From the NCBI GenBank assembly GCA_035527835.1, contig DATKZS010000041.1, positions 8,848 to 72,847 on the forward strand: 64,000 bases of DNA, given 5' to 3'. This DNA is from DATKZS01 sp035527835 [NCBI: bacterium] (GTDB lineage Bacteria; RBG-13-61-14). Shown here in pieces: positions 1,452 through 62,610 of the stretch. The position numbers were made by a program, and so were the translations under genes. Each line of letters opens with the position of its first letter. The stretch's first letter is position 1. The notes beneath the pieces were generated by a model, which made no database searches, was not told where the DNA came from, and saw only the letters and a list, made by a program, of their open reading frames with translations.

Positions 1452-1543
1452 ATAACCACAGATGAACACTGATAAACACCGATCAAGAAATGAAGCAACA
1501 GGAAATAACCATCCGTGTTCATCCGTGTTCATCCGTGGTTTAT
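1452..1543. repeat. Hairpin repeat, ACAGATGAACAC word class
   Basis: Left arm: near-tandem words 'ccacagatgaacactgataaacaccgat'-like. Right arm: the inverse, 'atccgtgttcatccgtgttcatccgtgg'-like. The loop is about 25 bases. The same class recurs at 14423-14764 (split by a MITE) and 38938-39073. Confidence 0.8.
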
Positions 1544-1600
1544 CCTTTCATCTGACTGACTGGTGGCGGCAAGACTTTGCGAGACGGAACTAATACTCTG

Positions 1601-2149
1601 ATGAAAACGGAATACCCTGGAGCCAATGAACTCTACGACGTGTTCGACGAGGATGGCCGCCTGGTAGGCCAGGCCACGCGCCGGGAGGTCCACGCGGACC
1701 GCTCGCTCATCCACCGCGCCGTGCACGTCCTGCTCTTCCGCTCGAACGGCCGCCTGCTCATGCAGAAGCGGGTGAAGCAAAAGGACGTGGCGCCCGGCAA
1801 ATGGGACACCTCGGTCGGCGGGCACGTGGACGCCGGAGAGGACTACGACTCCGCGGCGCGGCGCGAGCTCAGGGAGGAGCTGGGCATCGGGGGCGTGGAG
1901 CTCGAGCGGCTCTACGAGTTCAAGTACCGCTCCGGGCGCGAGAGCGAGGACGTGCGCACTTACCGCCTGGTCTATGACGGCCCGGTTCAGCCGGAGTGGT
2001 TCGAGATCGAACAGGTCCGGGAATGGACCATCGAGGAAGTGGACCGCGCCGTGGGCGCCGGCGTCTTCACCCGGAACTTCGAGCAGGACTGGAGGATCTA
2101 CAAGGAATTCAGCTCCGAAGGAGCGGCATTCGACAGCCCAGCGGCGTAG
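1601..2149 (+). CDS. NUDIX hydrolase (YfcD / IPP-isomerase-like)
   Basis: A complete Nudix box is present (GGHVDAGE...ARRELREELGI, i.e. GX5EX7REUXEEXGU). It is preceded by YDVFDEDGRLVGQATRREVH and HRAVHVLLF, the layout of the YfcD/IPP-isomerase-like group that hydrolyses nucleoside-diphosphate-linked substrates. ATG 1601 is chosen; an in-frame TTG lies 24 bases upstream. The last ~14 codons (SSEGAAFDSPAA) are encoded by palindromic repeat DNA that flanks the neighbouring transposase, so the original C-terminus seems to have been replaced or extended when that repeat arrived. Confidence 0.85.
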   Translation: MKTEYPGANELYDVFDEDGRLVGQATRREVHADRSLIHRAVHVLLFRSNGRLLMQKRVKQKDVAPGKWDTSVGGHVDAGEDYDSAARRELREELGIGGVELERLYEFKYRSGRESEDVRTYRLVYDGPVQPEWFEIEQVREWTIEEVDRAVGAGVFTRNFEQDWRIYKEFSSEGAAFDSPAA

Positions 2150-2200
2150 CCCTGGGAATGCGGTGGCGACAGTGGCGGCCAGCTCTGAAGGAGCGGCATA
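2112..2200. repeat. Left flank of RAYT-1: REP-like palindromes
   Basis: 2112-2158 (GCTCCGAAGGAGCGGC, then gacagcccagcggcg...ccctggga) is repeated inverted at 2714-2760. 2181-2200 (agctctgaaggagcggcata) is repeated inverted at 2672-2691 with one mismatch. Related units occur at 56450-56650. Confidence 0.8.
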
Positions 2201-2215
2201 AAACAAGGAGTGGAA

Positions 2216-2668
2216 GTGCCACAGTCACTGGCCCATATGCTCGTGCATCTTATTTTCAGCACCAAGGAGAGGAAGCCATTGCTTATCAAGGAAGTTCGCG
2301 AGGAATTAAACGCCTATATTGTGGGGATCCTCCATCAGCACAACTGCCATCCTGTCATTGTTGCCTCGGTGGAAGACCACGTGCATGTCCTTTTTTATCT
2401 TGCCAAGGACATGGCCTTGAGCAAAGCGGTTGAAAGAGTGAAATCAAATTCGTCAAGATGGCTCAAGACTAAATCTCCGCTTTTAACCAATTTTTCGTGG
2501 CAGAACGGTTACAGCGCATTTTCCGTCAGTCAATCCAATACTGAGGCGGTGCGCGCCTATGTTGCCAGGCAGGAAGAACATCACCGCAAGGTATCGTTCA
2601 TGGAGGAAGTAAAGAAATTTCTCGACAAGCACCAAATAAAATACGACGAGAGATACCTCTGGGACTGA
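2216..2668 (+). CDS. IS200/RAYT-like Y1 (HUH) transposase
   Basis: A TnpA-type tyrosine transposase of about 150 residues. The N-terminus MPQSLAHMLVHLIFSTK is characteristic of the family, the HUH metal motif is DHVHVLF, and the catalytic Tyr lies in the helix NGYSAFSVSQSN, followed by VRAYVARQEEHHR. GTG 2216 is preferred over GTG 2210 because AAGGAG then sits five bases upstream and the protein starts at the usual family N-terminus. The enzyme nicks and joins single-stranded DNA at hairpins. Here it is bounded by nested inverted repeats rather than by typical IS200 ends, so it looks like a REP-associated transposase (RAYT). It appears intact. Confidence 0.88.
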   Translation: MPQSLAHMLVHLIFSTKERKPLLIKEVREELNAYIVGILHQHNCHPVIVASVEDHVHVLFYLAKDMALSKAVERVKSNSSRWLKTKSPLLTNFSWQNGYSAFSVSQSNTEAVRAYVARQEEHHRKVSFMEEVKKFLDKHQIKYDERYLWD

Positions 2669-2671
2669 GAC

Positions 2672-2760
2672 TATGCCGCTCTTTCAGAGCTGAAAAGGTT
2701 GAACATCTAAGCTTTCCCAGGGCTTCGCCGCTGGGCTGTCGAATACCGCCCCTTTGGGGC
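2672..2760. repeat. Right flank of RAYT-1: REP-like palindromes
   Basis: Inverted partner of the left flank. The inner unit is 2672-2691; the outer unit 2714-2760 contains CCCAGGGCTTCGCCGCTGGG and ends in cccctttggggc. The next gene starts within or just after this DNA. Confidence 0.8.
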
Positions 2761-2765
2761 TAAGA

Positions 2766-3731
2766 ATGCACTGGAGAATACTTTTCATGCGCCGCACCGC
2801 CCGCTATCTGATCGCCATCATCATTTTCCTGGCCGGGCTTGAGGCCGTCCTCCAGGCCGCGCATTTTTACGCGCTGCGCCGCGAGGCCCGGTCAGCGCTC
2901 GCCGACCCCGCCGCTTCCGTCATATTGTGCCTGGGCGACAGTCACACTTACGGCGCGGGCGTCGCGGCGGACGAGGCTTACCCGGCGCGGCTGCAAGCGA
3001 TGCTGGCGGCCAAGGGTTATCGCGTGAACGTGGTCAACCTGGGCGCGCCCGGGACCAACACCTCGGAAATCCGGCGGCGCCTGCCCCAGTGGCTCGCGAG
3101 CTATCACCCCGCGGCCGTGATCGTACTCGCGTCCGTCAACAACGGCTGGAACCGGCGCGACATGGCCTGGTCCGACGCGCAGGACGGCCTGCCCGTGCCG
3201 CTCATGACGAAGCTCACGGATTTTCTCATGACCCGCGTCCGCACCATCCGCCTCGTCACCATCATGATCCACCGTCTCGACTGGACCCGGCCGCCGGAAG
3301 AATCCGCCCGCGACCGCTCCGGCAACCTGGTGCTGCACCATCGGGAGGAGGCCGACAAGGTCGAGACCGCAAGCGCCGGATACCTCCGCGTCCGCCGCGA
3401 CCTGACCGCCATCGTGGCCCAGGTCCGCGCCGCCCACGCCGGCCCCCTGCTCATGACCTACGTCAGCGACCCCGAGTATACGTTCGAGACTCCGAACCGC
3501 GCGCTCCGCGAGGCCGCGTCGGCCATGAACGTCGCGCTCGCGGACAACGACCATGCGCTCCGCCCCCTCTTCATCAGGCCGGACGGGAGCATCGTCCGGG
3601 CCGCGCGCGCGAGCCTCTTCTTCCCGGACATGCACCCGAGCGCGCAAGGATATAAGATGATCGCCGGGAACGTCGAGAAGACGCTGGCAAGCTCCGGAGC
3701 GCTTGCGGCCCTGAAGAGAGCCGGGCCATGA
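2766..3731 (+). CDS. SGNH/GDSL-family hydrolase with N-terminal membrane anchor
   Basis: A hydrophobic helix near the N-terminus (ARYLIAIIIFLAGLEAVLQ) suggests an anchored or exported enzyme. SGNH blocks are visible: block I LCLGDSHTYGAG (nucleophile Ser in GDSH), block II NLGAPGTNTSEI, block III SVNNGWN, and block V DMHPSAQGY with the Asp-His pair. It is probably an esterase or O-acyl-hydrolase. The start is uncertain: ATG 2766 or 2787, and an in-frame TTG at 2754 lies in repeat DNA. A second SGNH protein is encoded at 5887-7110. Confidence 0.82.
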   Translation: MHWRILFMRRTARYLIAIIIFLAGLEAVLQAAHFYALRREARSALADPAASVILCLGDSHTYGAGVAADEAYPARLQAMLAAKGYRVNVVNLGAPGTNTSEIRRRLPQWLASYHPAAVIVLASVNNGWNRRDMAWSDAQDGLPVPLMTKLTDFLMTRVRTIRLVTIMIHRLDWTRPPEESARDRSGNLVLHHREEADKVETASAGYLRVRRDLTAIVAQVRAAHAGPLLMTYVSDPEYTFETPNRALREAASAMNVALADNDHALRPLFIRPDGSIVRAARASLFFPDMHPSAQGYKMIAGNVEKTLASSGALAALKRAGP

Positions 3732-3761
3732 GCTTGGCGCATTAGAGGGAGGGCAACGGCC

Positions 3762-4580: not shown

Positions 4581-5206
4581 CCCTTGGACTTCTGCAGCGC
4601 CTTCTTCGCCAGCGACACCGAGTAATGCTCCCAGTCGTCCTTATCTCCCGGCTGCTTCTGCCATAGCTCGAAGGTGCAGACGGGCGACCCGGAGGGGATG
4701 GTCTTGACGGCCTTCACCTGGAAGTCCAGGCCCGCGAACCTCTCCCGCGCCGCCTCGATCATGCCCTGCACCAGGTAGCGCTGCACCCGGCAGTCAAAGG
4801 CCTTATAGCTGTCCTGGTGCGGGCACCACAGGATGTCGAACGAGCAATGCTCCGCGTCCTCGATCCGCGGGTCCTCCGGCGACGCGTAAATCTCGCGGTT
4901 GATCCAGCTCGCGAACGCCGAGATGAACTCGATGGGAGTGACGTCCGCCGGAACCGCCACGCCCTCCAGCATCTGCCTCCCCACGTCCCTGCCCACCTCC
5001 ACCAGCGCCTCGATCATCGCCGCCTGACCCGCCTCCCCGAACTCGCGCTCCGCCGCCTTCAGCATCCCGAGCACCGACATCCCCAGCATGTTGCCCCACC
5101 TAAACAGCGACGCCGGATCATAATCATCACGGCCCAGCGCCTCCCGCCCGCACCGCTCGCCCGCGGCCTGGAACGGATAATTGAACTTCATCTTGAGGGT
5201 CTGCAT
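4577..5206 (-). CDS. Uncharacterised protein, possibly ATC-hydrolase (L-2-amino-thiazoline-4-carboxylate hydrolase)-like
   Basis: A 209-residue soluble protein without signal peptide. It has a Cys-rich core CSFDILWCPHQDSYKAFDCR and a later PSGSPVCTFELW. The spacing 'W-x-CP...(F/C)..C...' near the middle and a C-x-F beta strand near the end recall the ATC-hydrolase-like family, but this is only a motif impression. ATG 5206 is chosen because GGAGG lies about seven bases upstream; the in-frame TTG at 5218 overlaps that site. Convergent with the SDR. Confidence 0.6.
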   Translation of the reverse strand: MQTLKMKFNYPFQAAGERCGREALGRDDYDPASLFRWGNMLGMSVLGMLKAAEREFGEAGQAAMIEALVEVGRDVGRQMLEGVAVPADVTPIEFISAFASWINREIYASPEDPRIEDAEHCSFDILWCPHQDSYKAFDCRVQRYLVQGMIEAARERFAGLDFQVKAVKTIPSGSPVCTFELWQKQPGDKDDWEHYSVSLAKKALQKSKG

Positions 5207-5218
5207 GGAAGCCTCCAA

Positions 5219-5298
5219 ATAGTAGATAGTAGGTAGTAGGTAGTATATAGGGAAAAATGGCGCGGACAGTCCGATCCCTCTCTACTACCTACTATCTA
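5219..5298. repeat. Hairpin repeat, TAGTAGATAGTAGG word class (5' part)
   Basis: Arms are built from tagtag/taggtag words around a 25-30 base core. The right arm is interrupted by the MITE at 5299-5561 and resumes at 5571 (ctatcttctatctacttct). The 3' end of the next minus-strand gene lies in the resumed arm. Confidence 0.75.
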
Positions 5299-5561
5299 CA
5301 GTGCTGTCCAAAATAAACGGACCGGAGAACCGCCAAGACGCCAAGAGCGCCAAGGATTATTTTTAAACACGATTTTAAGAGAGCTTGGGTGCGAATGTTT
5401 CTTGCTTGGCGCTCCCGTCGGCCGGTCCGCCAAGCCGGTTGGGGCCGACGTTCCGGAGCTGTTCTTTGCCGGGCCGCGAAGAAACATCATGATTTACTTG
5501 GCGATCCTTGGCGCTCTTGGCGTCTTGGCGGTTTTCTTGCGGCCTATTTTGGACAAGAGTG
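5299..5561 (+). mobile_element. 263-bp MITE, copy 1
   Basis: The ends are CAGTGCTGTCCAAAATA and its near inverse TATTTTGGACAAGAGTG. They continue inward as a longer inverted repeat made of cgccaag words. A perfect 9-bp target duplication TACTATCTA lies at 5290-5298 and 5562-5570. Near-identical copies of exactly 263 bp lie at 14449 and 34288. No transposase is inside. Confidence 0.93.
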
Positions 5562-5581
5562 TACTATCTACTATCTTCTAT

Positions 5582-5839
5582 CTACTTCTTCCCCCACCGC
5601 TCGGCCATCTCCACCATCCTTCCGATCTTCCCTCCGGCCTCCGGACGGGTGAGGCCCTGTTGGATCACCTCGGGCGCGTAGTTGTCGGCGAGGAACTGGC
5701 CGATGTCAATCTTGGTGGCCCAGCAGTTGATGATGACCCAGCAGAAGGGCGACCCCGAGGTGCGGCAATACTTGAAGGGCACGAAGTCGCCGATCCGCGG
5801 ACAGCGGGTGACCTGCTCGTCATGTTCTTCCATGGACAT
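5582..5839 (-). CDS. Small Cys-rich protein of unknown function
   Basis: 85 residues. The N-terminal half carries four Cys in a compact pattern (TRCPRIGDFVPFKYC, then SPFCWVIINCW), which suggests a metal-binding or disulfide fold. The rest is a helical segment ending RMVEMAERWGKK. There is no signal peptide or obvious Shine-Dalgarno. Two in-frame ATGs are possible (5839, 5833). The stop codon falls in the TAGTAG-type hairpin arm. I do not recognise the family. Confidence 0.55.
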   Translation of the reverse strand: MSMEEHDEQVTRCPRIGDFVPFKYCRTSGSPFCWVIINCWATKIDIGQFLADNYAPEVIQQGLTRPEAGGKIGRMVEMAERWGKK

Positions 5840-5886
5840 GAAATTATTTTAGCACCGATCCCGGGGGAAAAGGGAACCGGCGCGGG

Positions 5887-7210: not shown

Positions 7211-8272
7211 ATGGGCGCATCCGAAAAAATCCCGGCCCTGCTCCGGTTCCGTCCGGTTTACGAAGGCGGCCCCGGCGCCGGGCCGTGGCTGATCAGCTCG
7301 CTGGGCCGGCCCGGGCTCGATCAGCGCGACGCGGCGGCGAGCATCGAGTTCTCGCAGGACCCGTCCCGGCCGAGCGCGGTGCTGGAGGGGCCGCTTGCGG
7401 GCAGGAGGGTGATCGGACTGGCCGCTGATTTCGGCGCGGACCTGGTGGGACCGATGGGCCTCTCCCTCATCGAGCAGGGCCTGGCGTTCACGGCGCGCCT
7501 GGTGGCGGCGGACGCGGCCGACTTACCGCTTCGGCTGCTCCGTCCCGCCGCGGCATCCGCCGGCGCTGCGGAAGCGGTCCCCGCCGAGGCCGTGGCGGTC
7601 CTGGAAGCGAGGCCCGGGGCCATGGTCTATTACGGGCGCCGCCGCGACCTCGGGGCCGGCCGCTTCTCGACCCTGCTCATGAAGAACCCGGGCGCGGAGA
7701 TCCTGGAGGGCCATCCCGCCCAGAGCGGGCAGGCGTTCGCGGTCCCGGCCGGAATGCCCTATGTGCTGGGCCGCGGCGTCATGGCCTACGTCGCGGGCGT
7801 GGAGGCCTCATCGGGCAAGGCCGTCAAGGCCGGCGCCGGCCTCATCACCGAACCGGCGCCCGTCTCGCGCGTTTTCATCCGGGGCCTGGGCTTCCTCGAC
7901 GGGATGAACGCGGTGACGTGGCTCGTGGCCGCCGGGCCCCTGGCCGTGGCGCGGCTGGATTTGCGAGCGGAATGGGAGGACGAGTGGAAGGGCGGCGGCC
8001 CGCGGCCCGGCTTCGTGCTCCTCACCGGACTCTCCGGACGCGCCCTGCTCACCGGGGCCGGGGAGACCGAGACCATCGCCCGCGGCGTCACCGTGATGGC
8101 GGCCGCCTCCTGCCGTTGCTTCCGCCTCAATCCCGGCCCGGAAGGCGCCTCCATCCTCAAGACCTGGCTCTCCGACCGAGCGGCCGAGATCGAGAGGCCG
8201 CTTTTACAAAGGGGCCTGACCAGGAAAGAGATCGAGGGATTGTACGGGGCAAACGAAAGGAAGCGAAGATGA
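7211..8272 (+). CDS. Class I phosphomannose-isomerase-like cupin protein, probably degenerate
   Basis: About 353 residues from ATG 7211. The core resembles ManA-type cupins: a long segment with AVPAGMPYVLGRGVMAYVAG, where the family has a metal-binding His ('PAGTPHA-G-G'). Here that His is Tyr, and I see no clear Gln-x-His-Pro motif upstream either, so the usual Zn site looks incomplete. It may act as a sugar-binding or regulatory protein rather than an isomerase. The stop codon abuts a CGCCAAG-type hairpin. Confidence 0.6.
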   Translation: MGASEKIPALLRFRPVYEGGPGAGPWLISSLGRPGLDQRDAAASIEFSQDPSRPSAVLEGPLAGRRVIGLAADFGADLVGPMGLSLIEQGLAFTARLVAADAADLPLRLLRPAAASAGAAEAVPAEAVAVLEARPGAMVYYGRRRDLGAGRFSTLLMKNPGAEILEGHPAQSGQAFAVPAGMPYVLGRGVMAYVAGVEASSGKAVKAGAGLITEPAPVSRVFIRGLGFLDGMNAVTWLVAAGPLAVARLDLRAEWEDEWKGGGPRPGFVLLTGLSGRALLTGAGETETIARGVTVMAAASCRCFRLNPGPEGASILKTWLSDRAAEIERPLLQRGLTRKEIEGLYGANERKRR

Positions 8273-8273
8273 A

Positions 8274-8341
8274 CGCCAAGACGCCAAGAACGCCAAGCTT
8301 GAAAAATAAAAAAAATCTTGGCGTTCTTGGCGTCTTGGCGA
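8274..8341. repeat. Hairpin repeat, CGCCAAGACGCCAAGAACG class
   Basis: Two arms of three cgccaag words, (a)cgccaagacgccaagaacg and its exact inverse, around an A-rich loop. A second copy is at 47927-48007. Both MITE arms contain the same words. Confidence 0.85.
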
Positions 8342-8365
8342 TTATCTTCGCCTCCCTTTCCCCGC

Positions 8366-14422: not shown

Positions 14423-14764
14423 GCCACAGATTAACACAGATAAACACACAGTGCTGTCCAAAATAAACGGACCGGAGAACCGCCAAGGCGCCAAGAGCGC
14501 CCAGGATTATTTTTTAACACGATTTTAAGAGGGCTTGGGTGCGAATGTTTCTTGCTTGACGCTCCCGTCGGCCGGTCCGCCAAGCCGGTTGGGGCCAACG
14601 CTCCGGAGCTGTTTTTTGCCGGGCCGCAAAAAAACATCATGATTTACTTGGCGATCCTTGGCGCTCTTGGCGTCTTGGCGGTTTTCTTGCGGCCTATTTT
14701 GGACAAGAGTGATAAACACAGATTATTTTTTGCATCCGTGTTCATCCGTGTTCATCTGTGGTTG
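14423..14764. repeat. ACAGATGAACAC-class hairpin split by MITE copy 2
   Basis: Left arm ccacagattaacacagataaacaca. The right arm, gcatccgtgttcatccgtgttcatctgtgg-like, resumes after the MITE. Removing the MITE and one 9-bp duplication restores a continuous hairpin. Confidence 0.8.
14449..14711 (+). mobile_element. 263-bp MITE, copy 2
   Basis: Same ends and length as copy 1. The perfect 9-bp target duplication ATAAACACA lies at 14440-14448 and 14712-14720. The insertion is inside an ACAGATGAACAC-class hairpin. Confidence 0.93.
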
Positions 14765-14800: not shown

Positions 14801-15253
14801 ATGACCGATGACGAAAAATACATGGCCGAGGCCCTGGCCGAGGCGCGGGCCGCGGCGGAGGCGGGCGAGGTCCCGGTCGGCTGCGTGATCGTGAGCCGGG
14901 GCCGGGTGATCGGGCGGGGTCATAACCTCCGGGAGGCCACCAATGACCCGACCGCGCACGCCGAGATCGTGGCGCTTCGGGAGGCCGCCAAGGCCGTGGG
15001 CTGCTGGCGCGTCACGCCCGCGGCCTGTTACGTCACCTGCGAGCCGTGCCCCATGTGCGCGGGCGCGCTGGTGAACGCCCGGGTGGACCGCCTGGTCTAT
15101 GGCTGCGCGGACCCCAAGGCCGGCGCCTGCGGAACGCTCTTCGATATCCCGCGCGACCCGCGGCTGAACCACCGGATGGAGGTCGCGGCCGGAGTGATGG
15201 AACCGGAGTGCGCGAGACTGCTCCAGGAGTTTTTCCGCGGCCGAAGGTTATAG
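14801..15253 (+). CDS. tadA: tRNA-specific adenosine deaminase TadA
   Basis: 150 residues from ATG 14801. The cytidine/deoxycytidylate-deaminase zinc site is intact: HAE in DPTAHAEIVALR (His ligand and catalytic Glu) and PCPMC (two Cys ligands). TadA converts A34 to inosine in tRNA-Arg(ACG), and that tRNA is encoded 460 bases upstream. It is followed by tRNA-Ser genes, the SRP RNA and dnaX, an arrangement seen in many bacteria. Confidence 0.95.
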   Translation: MTDDEKYMAEALAEARAAAEAGEVPVGCVIVSRGRVIGRGHNLREATNDPTAHAEIVALREAAKAVGCWRVTPAACYVTCEPCPMCAGALVNARVDRLVYGCADPKAGACGTLFDIPRDPRLNHRMEVAAGVMEPECARLLQEFFRGRRL

Positions 15254-15333
15254 GCTTGAGGCTTGGGGCTTGAGGGTGGATGCATGGGTCTGGTCCCTCT
15301 GCCCTCAAGCCTCAAGCCCCAAGCCTCAAGCCT
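15252..15333. repeat. Hairpin repeat, GGCTTGAGGCTTGGGG class
   Basis: Arms of ggcttgaggcttggggcttgag words and their inverse around a ~25-base loop. The tadA stop is at its edge. Other members: 18935-19041, and single arms at 31254-31308, 36265-36293 and 63957-63990. Confidence 0.85.
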
Positions 15334-15389
15334 TTCTTCCGGCCCATTTGCATGGCCGTGCAAATCGGATAAAATCTAGATTGACAAAG

Positions 15390-15459
15390 GGGTTTGTGGT
15401 TTGTAGTTTGTGGTTTGTGGTTATCGAACCAAAAACCCAAAACCCCAAACCACAAACCT
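15390..15459. repeat. Hairpin repeat, GGTTTGTGG class (1)
   Basis: Arms of ggtttgtggtttgtagtttg words and their inverse (ccaaaccacaaacc). Located just before the first tRNA-Ser. Confidence 0.85.
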
Positions 15460-15468
15460 GTTTTAAAC

Positions 15469-15566: not shown

Positions 15567-15630
15567 GGGTTTGTGGTTTGTAGTTTGTGGTTTAAGAACC
15601 CCAAACCCAAAACCCCAAACCACAAACCTT
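15567..15630. repeat. Hairpin repeat, GGTTTGTGG class (2)
   Basis: Fills the whole gap between the two tRNA-Ser genes. Arms gggtttgtggtttgtagtttg and inverse. Confidence 0.85.
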
Positions 15631-15636
15631 TAAAAC

Positions 15637-15731
<95 letters not shown>

Positions 15732-15738
15732 TATAAAA

Positions 15739-15820
15739 GGTTTGTGGTTTGAGGTTTGTGGTTTGTGGTTCGGGAACCAAAAACCTGAAACCACAAACCA
15801 CAAACTACAAACCACAAACC
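15739..15820. repeat. Hairpin repeat, GGTTTGTGG class (3)
   Basis: Third consecutive copy of this class, between tRNA-Ser(GGA) and the SRP RNA. Confidence 0.85.
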
Positions 15821-15827
15821 TCGTTTC

Positions 15828-15955: not shown

Positions 15956-16050
15956 AAATTATGAATGATGAATTATTAATTATGAATGAAGAGCATCCCG
16001 GCGGCCTGCCGGATTTTTAATTCATCATTCATCATTCATCATTCATAATT
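15956..16050. repeat. Hairpin repeat, ATGAATGATGAATTATTAATT class
   Basis: AT-rich arms of atgaatgatgaattat words and ttcatcattcatcattcat around a GC core (gcggcctgccgg). Located between ffs and dnaX. Confidence 0.85.
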
Positions 16051-17766: not shown

Positions 17767-17974
17767 GCGCTTTGGAGTGCGCGCGGCTTGCCGCCGATTT
17801 TACGAGCCGGGAGCTTGCTCCCGGCGGACTCTCCGGCGCACGCCAAGCAGGGGAGGGCTTCAATCTCGCTCCTGGTGGACTGAGAGTCTTGTTCCTGTGC
17901 CGGCCAGCAAGCTGGCCGAGCGAAAGCGGGTGACCCGCCTCAGGCGGCGGCAAGCCGCGCGCACTCCAAAGCGC
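17767..17974. repeat. ~200-bp REP element family A, copy A1
   Basis: Outer stem gcgctttggagtgcgcgcggcttgcc... and inverse ...ggcaagccgcgcgcactccaaagcg. Inner hairpins gccgggagcttgctcccggc and ccagcaagctgg. Same family and orientation as the copies flanking the RAYT at 40.2 kb. Confidence 0.88.
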
Positions 17975-18340: not shown

Positions 18341-18942
18341 GGGACGACCCGGTCGAGAAGCTCGCCCGCCTGCTCGCCCGCCTGCCCGGCATCGGCGAGA
18401 AGAGCGGGGCGCGGCTGGCCCATTACATCTGGCGCGCGCCCGGCCGCTACGCCGACGAGTTGGCCCTGGCCGTGCGCGAGGTCCGCGAGCGGGTCCAGGC
18501 CTGCCCGGTCTGCGGCAAGCCCTCCGTGGCCGCGCCCTGTGAAATCTGCTCCGACCCCGACCGCGACCACGGCGTGATCATGGTGGTGGAGGAGCCGCAG
18601 GACCTGGCCGCCATCGAGAAGACCGGGGCCTTCACCGGGACCTATCACGTGCTGATGGGAACGCTCTCGCCTCTCGCCGGACGCGGGCCCGATGACCTCA
18701 ACATCGCCTCATTGATCGAGCGCGCGCGGGACGAGAAGGTGCGCGAGATCATCCTCGCCACCAACCCCTCCGCCGAGGGCGACGCCACCGCGGCCTTCAT
18801 CGAAGAATCGCTGGCTGCCATCGGCCGGGACCTCAACGTAAGCCGCCTGGCCCGCGGCATCCCCACCGGCTCTCAGATCAAGTATCTCGACCCGCTCTCC
18901 CTGGAGCAGGCCATCAAGGACCGGAGGGGGAGGGGGGCTTGA
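18337..18942 (+). CDS. recR: Recombination mediator RecR
   Basis: About 201 residues. HhH region LARLLARLPGIGEKSGARLA, C4 zinc finger CPVCGKPSVAAPCEICSD, and a Toprim domain IMVVEEPQDLAAIEKTGAF...LSPLAGRGPDDL. Acts with RecO/RecF to load RecA at gaps. GTG 18337 overlaps the ybaB stop, implying coupling; an in-frame GTG at 18328 is an alternative. The 3' end runs into a GGCTTGAGG-class hairpin, which encodes the end of the gene. Confidence 0.95.
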   Translation: MRDDPVEKLARLLARLPGIGEKSGARLAHYIWRAPGRYADELALAVREVRERVQACPVCGKPSVAAPCEICSDPDRDHGVIMVVEEPQDLAAIEKTGAFTGTYHVLMGTLSPLAGRGPDDLNIASLIERARDEKVREIILATNPSAEGDATAAFIEESLAAIGRDLNVSRLARGIPTGSQIKYLDPLSLEQAIKDRRGRGA

Positions 18943-19041
18943 GGCTTGAGGCTTGGGGCTTGGGGCTTGGGGCTTGAGACGCGAGAGGTGGGCTTGATGC
19001 ACCCTCTTCCTCAAGCCTCACGCCCCAAGCCTCAAGCCCCC
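18935..19041. repeat. Hairpin repeat, GGCTTGAGGCTTGGGG class
   Basis: Left arm has four to five ggcttgag/ggcttggg words. Right arm: tcaagcctcacgccccaagcctcaagcc-type. Between recR and bioD. Confidence 0.85.
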
Positions 19042-31253: not shown

Positions 31254-31308
31254 CCCCCAAGCCTCAAGCCCCACGCCCCAAGCCTCAAGCCCCAAGCTCA
31301 AGCCTCTT
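31254..31308. repeat. Single arm of GGCTTGAGG-class hairpin
   Basis: Words caagcctcaagcccc... only; no inverted partner nearby. It holds the stop codon and last residues of the RND gene. Confidence 0.7.
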
Positions 31309-34287: not shown

Positions 34288-34550
34288 CAGTGCTGTCCAA
34301 AATAAACGGACCGGAAAACCGCCAAGGCGCCAAGAGCGCCAAGGATTATTTTTTAACACGATTTTAAGAGGGCTTGGGCGCGTATGTTTCCGGCTTGGCG
34401 CTCCCGTCGGCCGATCCGCCAAGCCGGTTGGGGCCAACGCTCCGGAGCTGTTATTTGCCGGGCCGCAAAGAAACATCATGATTTACTTGGCGATCCTTGG
34501 CGCTCTTGGCGTCTTGGCGGTTTTCTTACGGCCTATTTTGGACAAGAGTG
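34288..34550 (+). mobile_element. 263-bp MITE, copy 3
   Basis: Same ends and length as copies 1 and 2, same orientation. The perfect 9-bp target duplication ATGTAAGAT lies at 34279-34287 and 34551-34559. Located in the gene-free DNA upstream of the RND gene. Confidence 0.93.
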
Positions 34551-34619
34551 ATGTAAGATGTATAAATTTCTTTGCACTTTTCGCGAAATCATGCGCATCC
34601 GGCTGAAAGAATGAATGAA

Positions 34620-34683
34620 CAAGGAGATACAGGATATTCAGGATAAGAAAATCTTATCCTTGACATCCTGAATATCCTTGTTA
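34620..34683. repeat. Hairpin repeat, GGATATTCAGGATAAG class
   Basis: Arms aaggagatacaggatattc and inverse gaatatccttgtt-like, centre aagaaaatctt. Fifth-to-sixth word class of the same architecture. Confidence 0.8.
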
Positions 34684-34865
34684 ATAAACTCTTTGGTTGC
34701 GGCCAAAGGCCGCGCTGGGCGGAATCCAGGGGCGAGATTCTGCCCGCCGTTTACACCAATTTGAGTCCGCGGCGGTTCACCCGGAGATCGAGCGCGACGA
34801 GGGATCCGATCAGGAGGCATAACCACGCGGCCTGGGCCGCTCCGGCGCCGACCCCTCCATTCCAG

Positions 34866-36195: not shown

Positions 36196-36264
36196 TAACT
36201 TCTTCCTCCCTGAAAACGACATTCATAACTCAAAACGGGCGTGGCTGCCCCGCGTTCCCGCTCT

Positions 36265-36293
36265 GGCCCCAAGCCTCAAGCCTCAAGCCTCAC
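36265..36293. repeat. Single arm of GGCTTGAGG-class hairpin
   Basis: Words ccccaagcctcaagcctcaagcct. It encodes the last residues (RLEA) and stop of the ABC ATPase gene. Confidence 0.7.
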
Positions 36294-38937: not shown

Positions 38938-39073
38938 TTGCCGCAGATGAACGCAGATTAACGCAGATATTAAGAAAAATTAAATGTCATGCCTATGGAT
39001 GGCGAATGCTTCTTTTTCCTTTCTTTATTTTAGTCCTTTTTTATCTGTGTTCATCTGCGTTCATCTGCGGCTA
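38938..39073. repeat. Hairpin repeat, ACAGATGAACAC class (third member)
   Basis: Left arm ccgcagatgaacgcagattaacgcagat. Right arm atctgtgttcatctgcgttcatctgcgg. Fills the gap between the MCE gene and its permease. Confidence 0.85.
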
Positions 39074-40040: not shown

Positions 40041-40235
40041 GCGCAAGCTTTGGAGTGCGCGCGGCTTGCCGCCGCTTTCGTGAGCCGGGAGCTTGCTCCC
40101 GGCGGAGCTTCCCGGGCACCCAAGGTTGCGGAGTGCTTCACGCTTGCTCCCAATGGATTGAAGAGCTTTCTTCCGTGTTCCGGCAAGCAAGCTTGCCGAG
40201 CGAAAGCGGCGGCAAGCCGCGCGCACTCCAAAGCG
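40041..40235. repeat. REP element family A, copy A2
   Basis: Same architecture and orientation as A1: outer stem gcgcaagctttggagtgcgcgcgg, inner hairpins gccgggagcttgctcccggc and gcaagcaagcttgc. It lies immediately downstream of the RAYT stop. Confidence 0.9.
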
Positions 40236-40249
40236 TTCCGCACTGCAAT

Positions 40250-40780
40250 TTAAAAATCGTCAACCACATTGACCTTGTCCGTCTTGAAACCATAGATCAT
40301 TTTCCGAAACGCGTGCCCCGCGTTCAGTTCGAACCATTTCGCAGAGCACCATTCATATTGGTCGGCGACGGGAACAATCTTGTGATGGACCGGGTTCTGG
40401 TGGACGTAGTTTAGCCTAGCGAAATAGGATTTTTCAAAAGTAAGGTGCGAGTCCCAGTACTGGAACCACACCTTACGGCCCGGCGCATTGTCCATTCGGT
40501 TCAGCTCACGGGCTGAGAGGCTGTGCAGTTTGCGGATGAAGGGCCGCAATGTCTCCGGGCCGCCGCGGCACAGGGAGATGAAATGGTAATGATTGCTCAT
40601 CAGCGCCCATGCCTGCAGCTTCCATTGGTATTGGCCCGCGAGATCGAACAGCAGGTCCTGGAGCATGTTGAGCCGTTCGGGAGAGTTGAAAAGACGCTCC
40701 TTCCGACTGGTCGCGGCCGTCACCATGAACGCTCCCGGTTGTTCCAACCGATGCACGGGCGCATGGGGCCAATCACTCAT
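40250..40780 (-). CDS. REP-associated tyrosine transposase (RAYT-2)
   Basis: 176 residues of the Y1 transposase family: MSNHYHFISLC carries the His-U-His motif, LNYVHQNPVHHKIV and the helix FEKSYFARLNYVHQNP carry the catalytic Tyr region, with an N-terminal FMVTAATSRKERLF. Unrelated in detail to RAYT-1 at 2.2 kb. Its gene lies between two direct copies of the ~200-bp REP element (A2 and A3), the classical RAYT-REP arrangement. Further copies lie at 17.8 kb and 42.2 kb. Confidence 0.9.
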   Translation of the reverse strand: MSDWPHAPVHRLEQPGAFMVTAATSRKERLFNSPERLNMLQDLLFDLAGQYQWKLQAWALMSNHYHFISLCRGGPETLRPFIRKLHSLSARELNRMDNAPGRKVWFQYWDSHLTFEKSYFARLNYVHQNPVHHKIVPVADQYEWCSAKWFELNAGHAFRKMIYGFKTDKVNVVDDF

Positions 40781-40801
40781 CTCAACCGTCTCCTATTAAG
40801 T

Positions 40802-40995
40802 GCGCAAGCTTCGGAGTGCGCGCGGCTTGCCGCCGCTTTTGCGAGCCGGGAGCTTGCTCCCGGCGGTGTTTCCCTCGTACTCACGCCTTGTGATTTTGCA
40901 CCACGTCTTTCATTGGATTGAAGAGCTTGTTCCATGTTCCGGCAAGCAAGCTTGCCGATCCAAAGCGGCGGCAAGCCGCGCGCACTCCAAAGCGG
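40802..40995. repeat. REP element family A, copy A3
   Basis: Direct copy of A2 on the other side of RAYT-2. Core attggattgaagagct is shared with A2. Confidence 0.88.
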
Positions 40996-41062
40996 CAAGC
41001 CGCAGTCCAAGACCGAGGCTGAAATGCCCTGGGAACGCCGGCCATGTGGGCGCCGCGGCGTT

Positions 41063-42121
41063 TTATTTAATGATCCCAACATCCCTGAGAGTCCGATCCT
41101 TGCCTTTTTGTTCTGTTACGCATTTTTCAAGCATGAACAGAATTATTCTCCTGCAGACATCAAACATCAACTCGATTTCCCATTCCTCGATATTTAGAGT
41201 CTGATCATCGTAGGCAAAGCCGTGCATGATCTGGCTGCGGGCTTTATAGTACTTCTTTTTTATCAGCTTTTTAGCTTTACTTTTTACGTCCTCCGGGCCT
41301 GGCAACAAGATATCAATTCCTCTGGCCAATTGATTGCCCTTTCCTCTGGAACCATTAGGCTTTAAGCATAAAAGCTCAAGTATCAAGCAGGAAAAAGCGA
41401 TCTTATGATCCGGATACTTCGAGTCTTGTGCGATCACATACCAGTTTATTGCAAACCTTAGATAGCTGAAATTCTGATTGTCTCTTTCATCGTCGAATAA
41501 TGTCCTGATCTGTTTCTCCAACTTTAAAAATCCATCCTCCGTGCTATTTCTCCAGTAAAATCTCATGTACTGACTATTACGCCATTCTCTCAGTTCCAGG
41601 GTCTCTTCTGGCAATTGCTCAAACGTAATCTCTCCTCTTTTGAACCTTTTGTATTCTTGGAGCGCTGTTCTAAGATTGGCTGGAGCATCAATATCAGGGA
41701 TGTCTTCCCACTGGTGCAGGGGTTGGTGGGGATAGCATTTTGCCAATGAACCTTGTGCATAATCCTCACTAAAAGTTCTGGTAGCGATGGCGGGAAATTT
41801 ATATAATAGCCTCAGGGCATAACCCACGAATGTGAAGTGCTTATCATGGAGTTCCTTCGCGTTAAAACAAAGAAAATATTTATCCCTCAGAAACTTTTCT
41901 TTTTCAAACATAGTGGGGATCAATGTGCCAGTGCTCATAGTGTGATTTCCTGAATCTCCTTGTTTCCGTTCAAACCAATCATTTATCTGTTCTGGCGTCA
42001 GCTTGATGAAAGAACAATAAGGAAGTATTATTCCCGATTCAGAAAACTCATCTGGAGCGTTAAAGCAGCCCAATGGCGTTATTGACCAGAAGTCCATTTC
42101 ATTGTCCATCGGTTCGGCCAC
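41063..42121 (-). CDS. Apea-like HEPN-domain protein (candidate defence factor)
   Basis: 352 residues with a GTG start preceded by GGAGAGG. The C-terminal ~120 residues form a helical domain: FSCLILELLCLKP...RGKGNQLARGIDILL, then KKKYYKARSQIMHGF, where Arg295-x4-His300 is the HEPN RNase motif (R-x4-6-H). The N-terminal part (residues 1-190) is unrecognised. The gene is clearly lower in GC than its surroundings. It lies between REP elements A3 and A4 in opposite orientation. HEPN RNases are common in abortive-infection and toxin systems, so this is a likely accessory or defence gene. Confidence 0.7.
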   Translation of the reverse strand: MAEPMDNEMDFWSITPLGCFNAPDEFSESGIILPYCSFIKLTPEQINDWFERKQGDSGNHTMSTGTLIPTMFEKEKFLRDKYFLCFNAKELHDKHFTFVGYALRLLYKFPAIATRTFSEDYAQGSLAKCYPHQPLHQWEDIPDIDAPANLRTALQEYKRFKRGEITFEQLPEETLELREWRNSQYMRFYWRNSTEDGFLKLEKQIRTLFDDERDNQNFSYLRFAINWYVIAQDSKYPDHKIAFSCLILELLCLKPNGSRGKGNQLARGIDILLPGPEDVKSKAKKLIKKKYYKARSQIMHGFAYDDQTLNIEEWEIELMFDVCRRIILFMLEKCVTEQKGKDRTLRDVGIIK

Positions 42122-42153
42122 CCGTCTTTTTCCTCTCCACTATAAATATAAGG

Positions 42154-42360
42154 GCGCAAGCTTTGGAGTGCGCGCGGCTTGCCGCCGCTTTCGCTCGGCC
42201 AGCTTGCTGGCCGGTTCCGGAATAAGTTCTTCAATCCGCCAGAAAAAAGCTTGAAGCACTCCCCAGCTTTGGTTGCACCAGGGAAGTCCGCCGGGAGCAA
42301 GCTCCCGGCTCGCGAAAGCGGCGGCAAGCCGCGCGCACTCCAAAGCGCAAGCCGCGCACT
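42154..42360. repeat. REP element family A, copy A4 (inverted)
   Basis: Same outer stem as A2. The inner hairpins are in swapped order (ggccagcttgctggcc first, then gggagcaagctcccgg), so the copy is inverted relative to A1-A3. Confidence 0.88.
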
Positions 42361-47903: not shown

Positions 47904-47926
47904 GGTTGCTCTCATTGAAGCAGGGA

Positions 47927-48007
47927 TTAACCGCCAAGACGCCAAGAACGCCAAGAGAAAAAGAATAAAAATTATTCCTTGGCGTTCTTGGCGTCTTGGC
48001 GGTTAAT
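47927..48007. repeat. Hairpin repeat, CGCCAAGACGCCAAGAACG class (second member)
   Basis: Arms ccgccaagacgccaagaacg and inverse, A/T-rich loop. Fills the gap between the two MlaF-like ATPase genes. Confidence 0.85.
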
Positions 48008-54276: not shown

Positions 54277-54332
54277 GAATCGAGGAACGAGGATCGAGGG
54301 AATTTTCCGACCCCCCGCCCCTCGATCCTTTT
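54277..54332. repeat. Hairpin repeat, GAATCGAGGAACGAGGATCGAGG class
   Basis: Arms gggaatcgaggaacgaggatcgagg and inverse ccctcgatcctt-like. Another member at 62526-62610. Confidence 0.75.
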
Positions 54333-54389
54333 CCATGAGGTTCTTCGCAATGGAGAATGGATAATATGTGCGGCGCGGACCGTGGATAG

Positions 54390-54462
54390 CGTAGAGCGAA
54401 GGGCGAAGGGCGTAAATCAAATCAGCGCCAAAGCAGCGGTCTTTCACGCCCTGCGCTCTACG
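54390..54462. repeat. Hairpin repeat, GTAGAGCGAAGGGCGAAGGGCG class
   Basis: Left arm gcgtagagcgaagggcg; right arm cgccctgcgctctacgc. Unique class in this window. The rest of 54259-54683 holds no gene. Confidence 0.75.
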
Positions 54463-54586
54463 CGCCCGCCGTTCCCCTCCAATGAAATTTTTCGGATCCA
54501 CTCTGGAAGGTGAAGAACCTTTCATGATTGGGCGTCGCCGCCGGCCGCATGAACACCTGCTCGGAGCGCCGGGCCGATATCGGGGA

Positions 54587-56449: not shown

Positions 56450-56650
56450 ACCCAAATGCTTAAAGCCCCGCAGGGGCGTGCTTCGTTAACCCAGGGCGGA
56501 AGCCCTGGGAGAGAGCTCAGGATAACCATCAAGCTCTGAAAGAGCGGCCTAAGACCATGCTGGGCCGCGCTTACAGCGCTAAAGACCGCACTGGTCGCAT
56601 TATACCCAGGGCTTCCGCCCTGGGTTAACGAAGTTCGCGCTTTCAGCGCT
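56450..56650. repeat. REP cluster related to RAYT-1 flanks
   Basis: Units cccagggcggaagccctggg and inverted cccagggcttccgccctggg, gctctgaaagagcggc (compare 2181), agcgctaaagaccgc and gcgctttcagcgct. Palindromes fill the gap between the Hsp70-like and J-protein genes; the start of the next gene lies at its edge. Confidence 0.8.
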
Positions 56651-56657
56651 GAGAAAA

Positions 56658-59427: not shown

Positions 59428-61031
59428 GCCAGGTGGCTGATACGCCCGAGCCGTTCGACCCGTTCAACCCGGCCGCCGACAACGACCTGTCCCTCTCCGC
59501 CCTGGTCCGCTCCATCCGCTACGCCGACTCCTATGCCCTCTTGTTCGCAGTCTGCAACCAGAACACTCTGCGCGACCGGCTTATCAAGGAAATAAAAGAC
59601 CGGCTCCCCGGAACGATCTTTGACGAGATCAGGCTCTCCGACCCCATACCCAACCTCTTCCGCTTTTTCGAGATGCGCTATCCCGGGACCCAATCGCCTT
59701 CAGGACCCGTAATGATCTACGGCATCGAAGCCTGGCTCCCCGGCGGAAGGAAAGGCGAGAACTCCGACTTCGTCATGAACCTCAACATCACCCGCGACCT
59801 CTTCCCCACCATCATCAACCGGCCCCTCATCCTCTGGCTCCCCGAGCACGCCCTCGCCTCCATCTTCCACGCCTCCCCCGACTTCTTTTCCGCCCGCTCC
59901 GGGGTATTCTTCTTCGCGGAAACGGATCAAGAGCGGATCGAGATGCTCGCCGCTATAAATACTTTGGGGCTGGAAGGAATTGCAGGCCTCCCCCTGAAAG
60001 AAAAACGTGACCGTATTTCCCTAATCGAAACTCTCCTTACCGAATATGGAAGACTCCCTCCTGAAAAAAAGGACCCACGCACAGAGATCAGGCTTAAGGA
60101 AGCCGCAGCAGAAACCTATTATGTTATGGGCGAATATAAAAAAGCCGAACCCATTCTCCAGGATCTAATGGATAGGAATAGAACTAACTATGGATCTGAA
60201 TCAAAAGAATATGCATCTTCACTAAACAACTTGGCCCTGTTGCTTCGTGCTATCAATCGGTTGGATGAGTCCGAAAATTATATGCGTGAAGCATTGGACA
60301 TTGATGAGCGTTTACTTGGACCAGAAAACCCGAATGTGGCTATTGAACTTGCAAATTTGGCAGGGTTGCTTCAGGCAACTGAGCGTACAGCCGAAGCAGA
60401 GCAGCTCTTGCGAAAGTCGCTGGCGATTTTGGAGCGTTCGTTTGGGCCAGATCATCCAAAGGTAGCGGCAGTTCTTGGAAACTTGGCTCATTTAATTAAA
60501 CGATCCAAACGATTTGATGAAGCCGAACCGCTCATGAGAAAAGCATTGGAGATTGATGAACGCTCATTTGGATCAAACCACCCCAGCGTCGCCACACGGC
60601 TAAATAATTTGGCAAGCTTGCTGCAAGATGCTAACAATCTTGCGGAGGCAGAACCGATGCTGCGGAAGGCATTGGAAATTTGGCAACATTTATATGGAAT
60701 TGGACATCCATTTGTTGCCATCGCGCTAAACAACCTGGGCCACCTGCTCATTGAGACTAAACGTTTGGATGAGGCTGAGCCGCTAATGCGAAGGGCGTTA
60801 GCAATTTTCGAGAAATCTCTGGGAGCAGAGCACCCCAATTTGGCTCTAGTTCTCGGCAATTTAGCCATGCTTGAGTGGGCAAGAGGGAATAATAAAGAGG
60901 CCGAGGAGATACTTATACGGGCATTAGCAATTTTTCGACGGAACTATGATGATGAAAACAATCCCCATATTTTAAAGACCCTACAGAGGCTAAAGCAAGT
61001 ACAAGCACGCTCTGGAAGTTCTGCCGGGTAG
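59424..61031 (+). CDS. TPR-repeat protein coupled to the ATPase (putative split STAND-like system)
   Basis: 535 residues. The N-terminal ~190 residues form a domain with NRPLILWLPEHALASIFHASPDFFSARSGVFFF, a motif seen at the front of bacterial STAND/TPR proteins. Seven tetratricopeptide-type repeats of 42 residues follow (kinesin-light-chain-like: 'VA..LNNLA.LL.....DEAEPLMRKALEI.E...G..HP'). Codon usage changes near 59950: GC-rich before, AT-rich after, so the gene is probably a chimera. Overlaps the ATPase gene by four bases. A two-gene ATPase plus sensor module is inferred. Confidence 0.78.
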   Translation: MSQVADTPEPFDPFNPAADNDLSLSALVRSIRYADSYALLFAVCNQNTLRDRLIKEIKDRLPGTIFDEIRLSDPIPNLFRFFEMRYPGTQSPSGPVMIYGIEAWLPGGRKGENSDFVMNLNITRDLFPTIINRPLILWLPEHALASIFHASPDFFSARSGVFFFAETDQERIEMLAAINTLGLEGIAGLPLKEKRDRISLIETLLTEYGRLPPEKKDPRTEIRLKEAAAETYYVMGEYKKAEPILQDLMDRNRTNYGSESKEYASSLNNLALLLRAINRLDESENYMREALDIDERLLGPENPNVAIELANLAGLLQATERTAEAEQLLRKSLAILERSFGPDHPKVAAVLGNLAHLIKRSKRFDEAEPLMRKALEIDERSFGSNHPSVATRLNNLASLLQDANNLAEAEPMLRKALEIWQHLYGIGHPFVAIALNNLGHLLIETKRLDEAEPLMRRALAIFEKSLGAEHPNLALVLGNLAMLEWARGNNKEAEEILIRALAIFRRNYDDENNPHILKTLQRLKQVQARSGSSAG

Positions 61032-61050
61032 TTGCCCTGTTGCTCATGCA

Positions 61051-61833
61051 CTATTTCTCCCCCGCCTCCGCGAAGTACTCATGGTTATAGATCAGGTCCT
61101 CGTACATTGCCAGCCCGTTCCAGAAGGAGAAGCTTTTCTGGGAGGCGTGGGAGTAGAGCGCGAGCTTTTTGAGTTGCTTTTCGGCGCGGATGTTGACGCG
61201 GATGGTGGGGACGGCGCGGGGGGCTTCGCGGCGCAGGAGGCTGAACCAGGAGTTGACGGTGTAGCGGGCGGGCGGCATGGTGACGTAATAGAGGCGCTGG
61301 GCCGGGCTTTTTTTGAAGGCCTCGGTGGCGGCCTTGGAGCAGGTGACGTGGTCGGGATGGCCGGAGATGCCGTAGGGGTCGTGGGTGATCACGATCTCCG
61401 CTCCGGCCGTCTCCAGAAACGACGCCACCCGCGCCGTCACCTCCGCGTAATCCGCGCTCTCCAGCCCCTGGTCCGGGTAGCCCGCCTCGATCACCTCGTC
61501 CGCGCCCAGGGCGTTCCCCGCGGCCATCAGCTCCTTGACCCGGATCTCGCCCAGCCGCTCCGGCGGGATGCCCAGCTTGTCCTTGGCCCGGTCCTGGTCG
61601 CCGATGGTCAGGCACAGGATATGGAGCCTCACCCGCGGGTCTTCTTTAAGCTTGATGAGCGTGCCGCCCACATAGAAGCTCTCGTCGTCCGGGTGCGCGA
61701 ACACCGCGGCCACGTCAATCCTTCCGTCCGCCCCCGGGCTCACCCCGTCCAGCAGGTCCCCCTCCGGCACGCGCGCCAGCGCCGCTCCGGCCATCAGCAA
61801 CAGCGCCGCAAAACCCATGATTCCGCGTTTCAT
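61051..61833 (-). CDS. Secreted PIG-L/LmbE-type deacetylase
   Basis: 260 residues. Signal peptide (MKRGIMGFAALLLMAGAALA). PIG-L motifs: VFAHPDDESFYVGGTL (metal-binding His, Asp-Asp) and SGHPDHVTCSKA (His-Pro-Asp-His). Such zinc enzymes remove acetyl from N-acetylglucosaminyl groups. Unlike most, it is exported, so a cell-envelope glycan or secreted glycoside is likely the substrate. Stands alone; convergent with the TPR gene. Confidence 0.9.
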   Translation of the reverse strand: MKRGIMGFAALLLMAGAALARVPEGDLLDGVSPGADGRIDVAAVFAHPDDESFYVGGTLIKLKEDPRVRLHILCLTIGDQDRAKDKLGIPPERLGEIRVKELMAAGNALGADEVIEAGYPDQGLESADYAEVTARVASFLETAGAEIVITHDPYGISGHPDHVTCSKAATEAFKKSPAQRLYYVTMPPARYTVNSWFSLLRREAPRAVPTIRVNIRAEKQLKKLALYSHASQKSFSFWNGLAMYEDLIYNHEYFAEAGEK

Positions 61834-61885
61834 CCGCTATTCTCCCGGACAGTTCGTGATGCCGCGAGGCGACAGCCTGCTTTCA

Positions 61886-61972
61886 GGGTCAGAGCTTCAG
61901 TTTTCAGTTAATCTCGGGGCGCTCAACACTTGTATCATCTCGTGATTAACTGAAAACTGAAGCTCTGACCCG
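61886..61972. repeat. Hairpin repeat, GTCAGAGCTTCAGTTTTCAG class
   Basis: Arms gggtcagagcttcagttttc and inverse; loop aatctcggggcgctcaacac... with a second small stem. Flanks the PIG-L gene. Confidence 0.85.
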
Positions 61973-62525
61973 CCCTTGCGCCATGGACCTGCAAAGGGTA
62001 TCAGACCGGCCCTTGGCAATCAAGCGTCTGAAACCGGAAAATTTTACATGATGGGGTGCGACCAATTTACGAAGTATAGGAGGGGCTTTGGGGGGGTTCG
62101 GCGCTTGTGAAAAAAAGGGGGGGAGGGTCTTGGATAGCGATACTCTACAAAAAGCCGCGTGGTCTTATGGAGATGAGGGCTTGCGGCTCGGGTTCCGCCA
62201 TTTTCGCAACCGCAATCCGCCGGCCTCAAGCCTTATGCCCTTTACGTATTTTCCGTGGCCTGTTCCGTGGCCTGAAGTTCGGACGTGGGTGGTCCGGATC
62301 TTGGGCCGCGGGAGGCCGGATGTCAGGACGCGGGAGGCCGGGCGTTGGGCCGCGGGAGGCCTGATGTCAGGCCGCGGAGGGGCTGAATTGGGCCAGGCTA
62401 AGTGGAGCGGGGGAATGCAAGTAACGGAAAAGGCTGGGGCGGCTTTTTCAAAAATCGCGGCGGGAGCGGTCCGTGGCCCAGGATTCAGGACAGCTCCTCA
62501 TGGTGCGCGGCGGCCGGAAGTCTTG
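61973..62525. other. Gene-free region with short direct repeats
   Basis: No convincing coding frame. 62308-62375 contains three near-direct copies of gcgggaggccggatgtcagg-type units. Otherwise GC-rich, low-complexity and unassigned. Confidence 0.5.
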
Positions 62526-62610
62526 GAAAGGAGCGAGGATCGAGGAGCGGGAATCGAGGAAATTTCGCGGTCCCCCTCGATCCTCGCTTCTCGCTGCTCG
62601 ATCCTTTTTT
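62526..62610. repeat. Hairpin repeat, GAATCGAGG class (second member)
   Basis: Arms gaaaggagcgaggatcgagg/gcgggaatcgagg and inverse ccctcgatcctcgcttc..ctgctcgatcctttttt. The T-run suggests it can also terminate transcription. Confidence 0.75.

Follow-up and report, generated by a model that had tools for sequence, protein, structure and literature searches.

The 64,000-nucleotide stretch analysed here (the window: contig DATKZS010000041.1, positions 8,848 to 72,847, of the bacterial assembly GCA_035527835.1, DATKZS01 sp035527835) carries in the gaps between its genes a dense set of hairpins, whose two inverted arms are each made of near-tandem copies of one short word. Its genes include tadA, two tRNA-Ser genes, the signal recognition particle (SRP) RNA gene and dnaX, in this order, as well as recR, an MMPL-family gene, ABC genes, mlaD-like and mlaE-like genes and a RAYT-like gene. 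The gene map started from 47 initial calls, of which we dropped 11, five of them in favour of longer open reading frames at their positions; our additions were 10 longer open reading frames, most of them with Pfam matches, and four RNAs. The GC content ranges from 0.51 to 0.69 in 4-kb steps. An earlier note on this sequence had described ten unrelated families of such hairpins sharing one architecture, as if made by one process. The common design built from different words was borne out, and we think it rather probable that most of these objects are short non-autonomous mobile elements of unrelated families, of the type of miniature inverted-repeat transposable elements (MITEs) or foldback elements. 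Word cores, loops and junctions were read by eye on the printed sequence.

The hairpins were recovered with an ungapped seed-and-extend detector (score equal to matches minus twice the mismatches, loop of at most 160). At a score of at least 17 it returned 19 inverted repeats in the window versus none in 20 dinucleotide shuffles; in the 37 intergenic segments (10,972 bases) the figures were 19 versus none across 100 shuffles, and at a score of at least 13 they were 25 versus a shuffle mean of 0.06 (maximum 1; n = 100). For the window, these controls rule out a chance origin of the hairpins; an occurrence at the rate of shuffled intergenic DNA, which the earlier note named as grounds for refutation, was not observed. 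All 19 stronger repeats are genic over less than half of their length, in a window that is 17% intergenic (binomial P 3e-15). The repeat 15568-15799 includes a tRNA gene, the detector having joined arms from two adjacent hairpins. The density of 19 per 64 kb compares with 17 per 322 kb in genome G001 and 26 per 1.16 Mb at 80 dnaX loci, where 3 of the 17 and 3 of the 26 repeats, respectively, have tandem arms. Hairpins with uneven arms are overlooked by the ungapped detector, which at score 17 found one per 200 kb in G061 and two in G023, and the comparison of gaps described below reveals more.

Within the window, movement is evident for a 263-bp element with ends CAGTGCTGTCCAAAATA and TATTTTGGACAAGAGTG, internal CGCCAAG words and a 146-nt inner loop. 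Its three copies (5299-5561, 14449-14711 and 34288-34550) all lie between perfect direct repeats of 9 bp (TACTATCTA, ATAAACACA and ATGTAAGAT, respectively), which indicates that this word-bearing element arrived as a transposon-type insertion. Copies 2 and 3 are 92% identical to copy 1, and all three belong to a 280-nt repeat family in which the additional length is flank. Copy 1 lies inside a TAGTAGR heptamer hairpin, separating the left arm, loop and start of the right arm (5219-5298) from the rest of the right arm (5562-5591), and copy 2 breaks a ACAGATNAAC word hairpin (14425-14763); both hairpins must therefore predate the insertion. An outer-end pattern resembling that of this element was found in just 1 of 67 genomes.

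The window has further word hairpins. Hairpins of the GGCTTGR heptamer lie at 15244-15334 and 18933-19041, and those of GGTTTGT before the tRNA-Ser genes (15386-15463), between them (15568-15628) and in the tRNA-Ser/SRP RNA gap (15738-15821), followed in the SRP RNA/dnaX gap by an AATTATG/ATGAATT heptamer hairpin (15957-16050). The last word type is also seen as an inverted AATTATG/AATTCAT pair at 2297-2378 of locus L008, from a groundwater metagenome-assembled genome (MAG) labelled Deltaproteobacteria. The word CGCCAAG forms hairpins at 8256-8358 and at 47926-48007, the latter with 30-nt arms of three words each that are 100% complementary. At 8256-8358 the palindrome extends past the words (GGAAGCGAAGAT...ATCTTCGCCTCC) into the end of the gene 7211-8272, whose stop codon is inside the outer arm; it looks as if a word hairpin had inserted into an older hairpin's loop, or as if template switching had lengthened the palindrome. 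Further words are CACNGATGAA, a 10-mer (1454-1540), GGATATTCAGG (34606-34694, score 16), CGCAGATNAA, between the mlaD-like and mlaE-like genes (38940-39071), GCGAAGG (54389-54463, a weak heptamer hairpin of score 14), TCAGTTT/AACTGA (61886-61971, 31-nt arms matching at 97%) and AGGAGCGAGAATCG (62536-62605, score 16). All ten words of the earlier note are present, nine of them inside hairpins recovered at a score of at least 13; the tenth, GAATCGAGGAACG at 54277, stays under this score, and 62536-62605 reads by eye as the same word type (GGAATCGAGG). Not every family is unrelated to the others, GGCTTGR and GGTTTGT having a common GGYTTGN, and among the CGCCAAG objects three are copies of the 263-bp element. 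Three GGCTTGR arrays depart from the two-armed design, being one-armed by eye; they lie at the 3' ends of the MMPL-family gene (31255-31306) and of an ABC gene (36261-36292), and close to the window end (63958).

Read by eye, a word is a core with freer positions, namely GGCTTG plus R, GGTTT plus NN, TAGTAG plus R, CGCCAAG plus 1-2 bases or C(A/G)CAGAT plus 2-3. Among the 14 tandem arrays of the window the period is 7 in 11, which makes these heptamer simple sequence repeats in the usual sense of tandem 7-nt units, 10 in two and 12 in one. Period 7 leads elsewhere as well (6 of 12 arrays in the G001 sample, 3 of 3 in G061 and G023 together, 9 of 17 at the 80 dnaX loci), and one shuffle each of the window, G001, G061 with G023 and the dnaX loci gave no tandem array at all. 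An inverted 9-nt partner is present within 220 nt for 9 of the 11 heptamer arrays of the window and for 7.8% of 32-nt segments drawn at random from the fetched loci (n = 4000), a loose comparison given that arrays hold repeated words. The arms often match even when their units are unequal, as in 47926-48007, where both read CGCCAAG-A-CGCCAAG-AA-CGCCAAG; they are not always alike, those of 1454-1540 being mismatched at base 4 of every word.

Some genes end inside these words. The TGA stop codons of recR (in the hairpin 18933-19041), of the MMPL-family gene and of the ABC gene all fall within the word GGCTTGA, which bears out in part what the earlier note said of gene ends held by the hairpins. 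Its remark that most of them have no T-run was confirmed: a run (at least 6 T in the 8 bases adjoining an arm) accompanies 4 of the 26 inverted repeats with a score of at least 13, and termination is accordingly rejected as their general role.

Comparison genomes were reached through dnaX matches and not at random, and many of them are MAGs that may be incomplete. They include one genus of five species (G126, G154, G061, G023 and G097). The order tadA, tRNA-Ser, tRNA-Ser, SRP RNA, dnaX is common to the window, G126 and G154, the last two being 93-96% identical in their aligned stretches. No two of the five genomes compared (the window and four relatives) have the same sequence in the gap that separates the tRNA-Ser genes, and in four of them it forms a clear word hairpin: the words are GGTTTGT in the window, CRCAGAT in G126, GTCAYTR in G061, TCAGC in G023 and, weakly, TTTGCGG in G154. 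After the second tRNA-Ser gene, G126 has no hairpin (about 26 nt), G154 has CACAGAG words and G061 and G023 have TCAGC words. Before dnaX a TATCAGCGTTCAG hairpin is kept in all four of these relatives; the fifth member, G097, gave no match to the tRNA-Ser locus. At this slot and in the G061/G023 gaps described below, words turn over while positions persist, as the earlier note had suggested they might. The dnaX of the window is about 45% identical to those of the genus, a distance at which only the comparison within the genus informs on the rate of turnover; in a dnaX tree the window fell among rows labelled Desulfobacterota, Myxococcota and Nitrospirota (top identity 54%), in no supported group. 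The same word recurs in neighbouring gaps, with GGTTTGT three times in the window (15391, 15568, 15739) and TCAGC twice in G023, and may have been copied from one gap to the next. In four genomes another locus (G154:C134, G061:C1:169154, G126:C107 and G097:C30) matches the tRNA-Ser gap of G126 together with its CRCAGAT hairpin at 84-87%, and this suggests copying between loci.

Whole hairpins can be present in one close relative and absent from another. Over 200 kb each, G061 and G023 share long matching blocks of 90-98% identity, interrupted by 26 short non-matching gaps; among the 34 alleles of these gaps that reach 50 nt, 24 contain an inverted repeat exceeding their own shuffles (p at most 0.05). 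Two units have the clearest junctions. One is a GTCANNN element of about 105 nt with sharp edges (TATAGGCAACGTCACTGG...GACATTCACTATA) and ends TATAGNNAAYGTCA, which has tens of matches in each of the five genomes. It is inserted at a site in G061 that is empty in G023 and G126, with TA duplicated, and many of its copies at unrelated loci have common loops and variable bases, from which we infer descent from one element. The other, a CGCAGAG-word element with ends GATAATCTCGTAAAAAGT and CATTTTTACGAATTG, is flanked by a duplication of ATCAGATTT (9 bp) versus an empty site in G126. At two sites compared with empty alleles, direct repeats also flank a TCAGCNN element (ends GTGTTCATCCGGAAA), with a length unsettled between 5 and 9 bp in a view of 7 of the 33 junctions with an overlap of at least -14.

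The words themselves are unevenly distributed. Arrays of CRCAGAT were detected in 24 of 64 genomes, with match counts of 152 (G001), 115 (G228), 24 (G002), 23 (G126) and 10 (G329, a Gemmata), and the reversed word gave none in these five genomes and two over all 64. CGCCAAG pairs have 73 matches in G001 versus none for the control, and 0-5 in each of 37 other genomes. GTCAYTR was found in 8 of 67 genomes, and a single genus accounts for 91 of its 96 matches; GGYTTGN was found in 5 of 67, with 9 matches versus 190 for the reversed control (GTTYGGN three times over; 105 in G322 and 75 in G053). The control matches represent another, very abundant heptamer word; GGYTTGN is therefore not enriched there, and reversed patterns make poor controls for heptamers. 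A single word conserved across bacteria is rejected by these counts.

Five of the 19 stronger inverted repeats are not word hairpins. Four (17767, 40047, 40808 and 42160) form a single palindrome family with arms GCGCGCGGCTTGCCGCC around the RAYT-like gene (40250-40780, minus strand), which matches Pfam Y1_Tnp and scores 79.9 bits with NCBIfam REP_Tyr_transpos, whose cut-off is 80. The gene is flanked by long inverted GCTTTGGAGTGCGCGCGGCTTGCCGCC pairs (40047-42346), with more copies at 17767-17974 and 42160-42346, and the unit 40047-42346 resembles the RAYT units with long inverted ends that are called 'TIRtrons' in PMC3733652 (this and the other papers are cited from excerpts of their text). 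The fifth repeat, at 56481, overlaps two Acido-Lenti-1 RNA matches that stand in inverted orientation 95 nt apart (56464-56650); it may be that this Rfam family is a mobile palindrome in its own right.

According to the explanation that we favour, the unit would be an element of about 80-260 bp with inverted arms, each built from one short word in tandem; the word would typically have a 4-6-nt core and 1-3 freer bases (period 7) or a 7-8-nt core and 1-3 such bases (8-10). A transposase encoded elsewhere in the genome would shift it into intergenic gaps and sometimes into other hairpins, duplicating the target. The repeated words would most likely be multiple transposase binding sites or remnants of these, and copies may also spread between nearby loci via recombination. 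On this explanation, the design is shared because several families of mini-elements use tandem words in their inverted ends, and the words differ because the families do; one gap would then hold different hairpins in different species. As regards the simple heptamer hairpins of the window, we infer that they move likewise, served in trans by a transposase that binds the words. More tentatively, tandem-word inverted arms may be convergent, the words, mostly at a 7-nt step, being read as docking arrays by different transposases, and dozens of unrelated families across phyla may replace each other in the same slots. The single process imagined in the earlier note is not supported in that form, since ends and target duplications differ between the elements tested (9 bp for the CGCCAAG element of the window; TA, 9 bp and the unsettled 5-9 bp in relatives), and several mobilising enzymes therefore seem to share one architecture.

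A number of observations weigh against this explanation. By eye, the GGTTTGT, GGCTTGR, ATGAATT and TAGTAGR hairpins have neither shared outer ends nor a target duplication. Ten of the 34 gap alleles lack a significant inverted repeat; among 17 candidate indels drawn from the same comparison only 3 have overlapping flanks (2, 5 and 9 nt), most gaps having no clean junction, and GTTCACC insertions bear only imperfect direct repeats. The left end of the GTCA element is present (at most 4 substitutions) in only 23 of 40 fetched GTCA-word loci, and the strict full-length pattern fits 7 of the 40, the others being partial or differently built. No partner transposase was found in a search aimed only at the IS630 family and the GTCA element: the six loci detected, in four of the five genomes, carried no GTCA element ends in the fetched DNA. 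Finally, transposition alone does not explain the excess of period 7 across phyla.

For the simple heptamer hairpins of the window, the main competing explanation is local generation. Replication slippage, favoured at steps of 7 nt, would produce the tandem words, and template switching at the fork would copy an array in inverted orientation and keep the arms alike, so that no transposition is needed. The lead of period 7 in all four samples favours some role of slippage, and heptamer over-representation and the slippage idea are both published (PMC4692102, PMC4679880). The unequal number of words per arm in some hairpins and the word common to the adjacent hairpins at 15391, 15568 and 15739 point the same way. 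It is less easily reconciled with the relatives, where whole units appear or vanish at defined sites with target duplications, where GTCA copies at unrelated loci go back to one ancestor and where one slot takes different words in different species; we regard local generation as possible, though rather unlikely to account for the hairpins.

The hairpins might also be terminators, mRNA stabilisers or paired sites of a global regulator; their strong stems fill gaps at gene ends, and the heptamer pairs of Geobacter metallireducens are annotated as putative sites of global regulators (PMC2700814). The scarcity of T-runs speaks against this, as do the hairpins 38940-39071 and 47926-48007, which stand between same-strand genes in operon-looking settings (mlaD-like/mlaE-like in the first, an ABC gene upstream in the second), and the absence or replacement of such hairpins in close relatives, so that we hold a functional origin to be improbable. 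Still less credit can be given to repetitive extragenic palindromic (REP) sequences or their mosaic arrangements (bacterial interspersed mosaic elements, BIMEs) moved by RAYT, a reading prompted by the RAYT-like gene in the window. The palindromes that flank this gene are of the other family and not word hairpins; RAYT-family matches, present in 54 of 67 genomes, have by inspection (no statistic) no visible tie to hairpin numbers, G319 having none together with 18 CRCAGAT matches, and the target duplications indicate other transposases. RAYT is therefore rejected as the mover. Nor does each class derive by degeneration from a single REP, which the earlier note had named as a second ground for refutation.

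Heptamer repeats and unusual intergenic hairpins have been described one by one in Xanthomonas, Nostoc, Geobacter and Beggiatoaceae, and were attributed to slippage or interpreted as quadruplexes or as binding sites of regulators. At least some word hairpins are now linked to transposition by their target duplications and by empty sites. Mobile word hairpins would also explain part of the small-scale diversity of intergenic DNA and the gene ends found inside repeats; small variable segments are known in three bacterial species, those of E. coli being mostly unlike known mobile or repeated elements (PMC2884548). Among titles and the beginnings of abstracts, with subscription journals mostly uncovered, we found no paper joining bacterial tandem-word hairpins to target duplications.

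Inverted heptamers as such are already published for Xanthomonas and Geobacter. The GGGAATC heptamers of Xanthomonas are tandem and mainly intergenic, form convergent inverted pairs (70 in one genome, 75 in another) and keep their place with variable length and sequence; they differ in the word and are treated as G-quadruplex formers (PMC4692102). In Geobacter metallireducens, classes 1-4 of the 'global regulator binding sites' are mostly paired and drawn as loops, one class being five tandem heptamers (MTYCTGA), and differ in that regulation is proposed as their function (PMC2700814). In neither case do the excerpts show mobility. The TAACTGA repeats of Beggiatoaceae and cyanobacteria are intergenic heptamers, to which the TTAACTGAAAACTGA of 61886-61971 is related, but they are direct, with one inverted case (PMC4679880). 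REP sequences resemble the word hairpins as small, intergenic and probably mobile palindromes; they consist of one short stem, tagged with GTAG or CGTC, and contain no tandem words (PMC3733652).

Prokaryotic MITEs (PMC10969869) are likewise similar. The 263-bp element and two elements of the relatives are short, non-coding and intergenic, with inverted ends and target duplications (9 bp at all three window copies; TA and 9 bp versus empty sites in the relatives), terminal inverted repeats being found in the window element and in the GTCA, TCAGC and CGCAGAG-bearing elements; copies are many for the GTCA element and three for that of the window. The difference is that here the arms are tandem 7-10-nt words, and tandem, heptamer, foldback and hairpin are terms that do not appear in the excerpted review text. 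This feature is the one that recalls Foldback and Galileo of Drosophila (PMC3573991), since tandem repeats within inverted ends are found both in the window hairpins and in the GTCA element. The Drosophila elements are eukaryotic, with ends of hundreds of bp and long repeats, and the likeness is one of architecture, with no claim of homology. In the same paper, repeats arranged in tandem at the ends of transposons are suggested to serve as secondary transposase sites and are called a convergent trait (PMC3573991).

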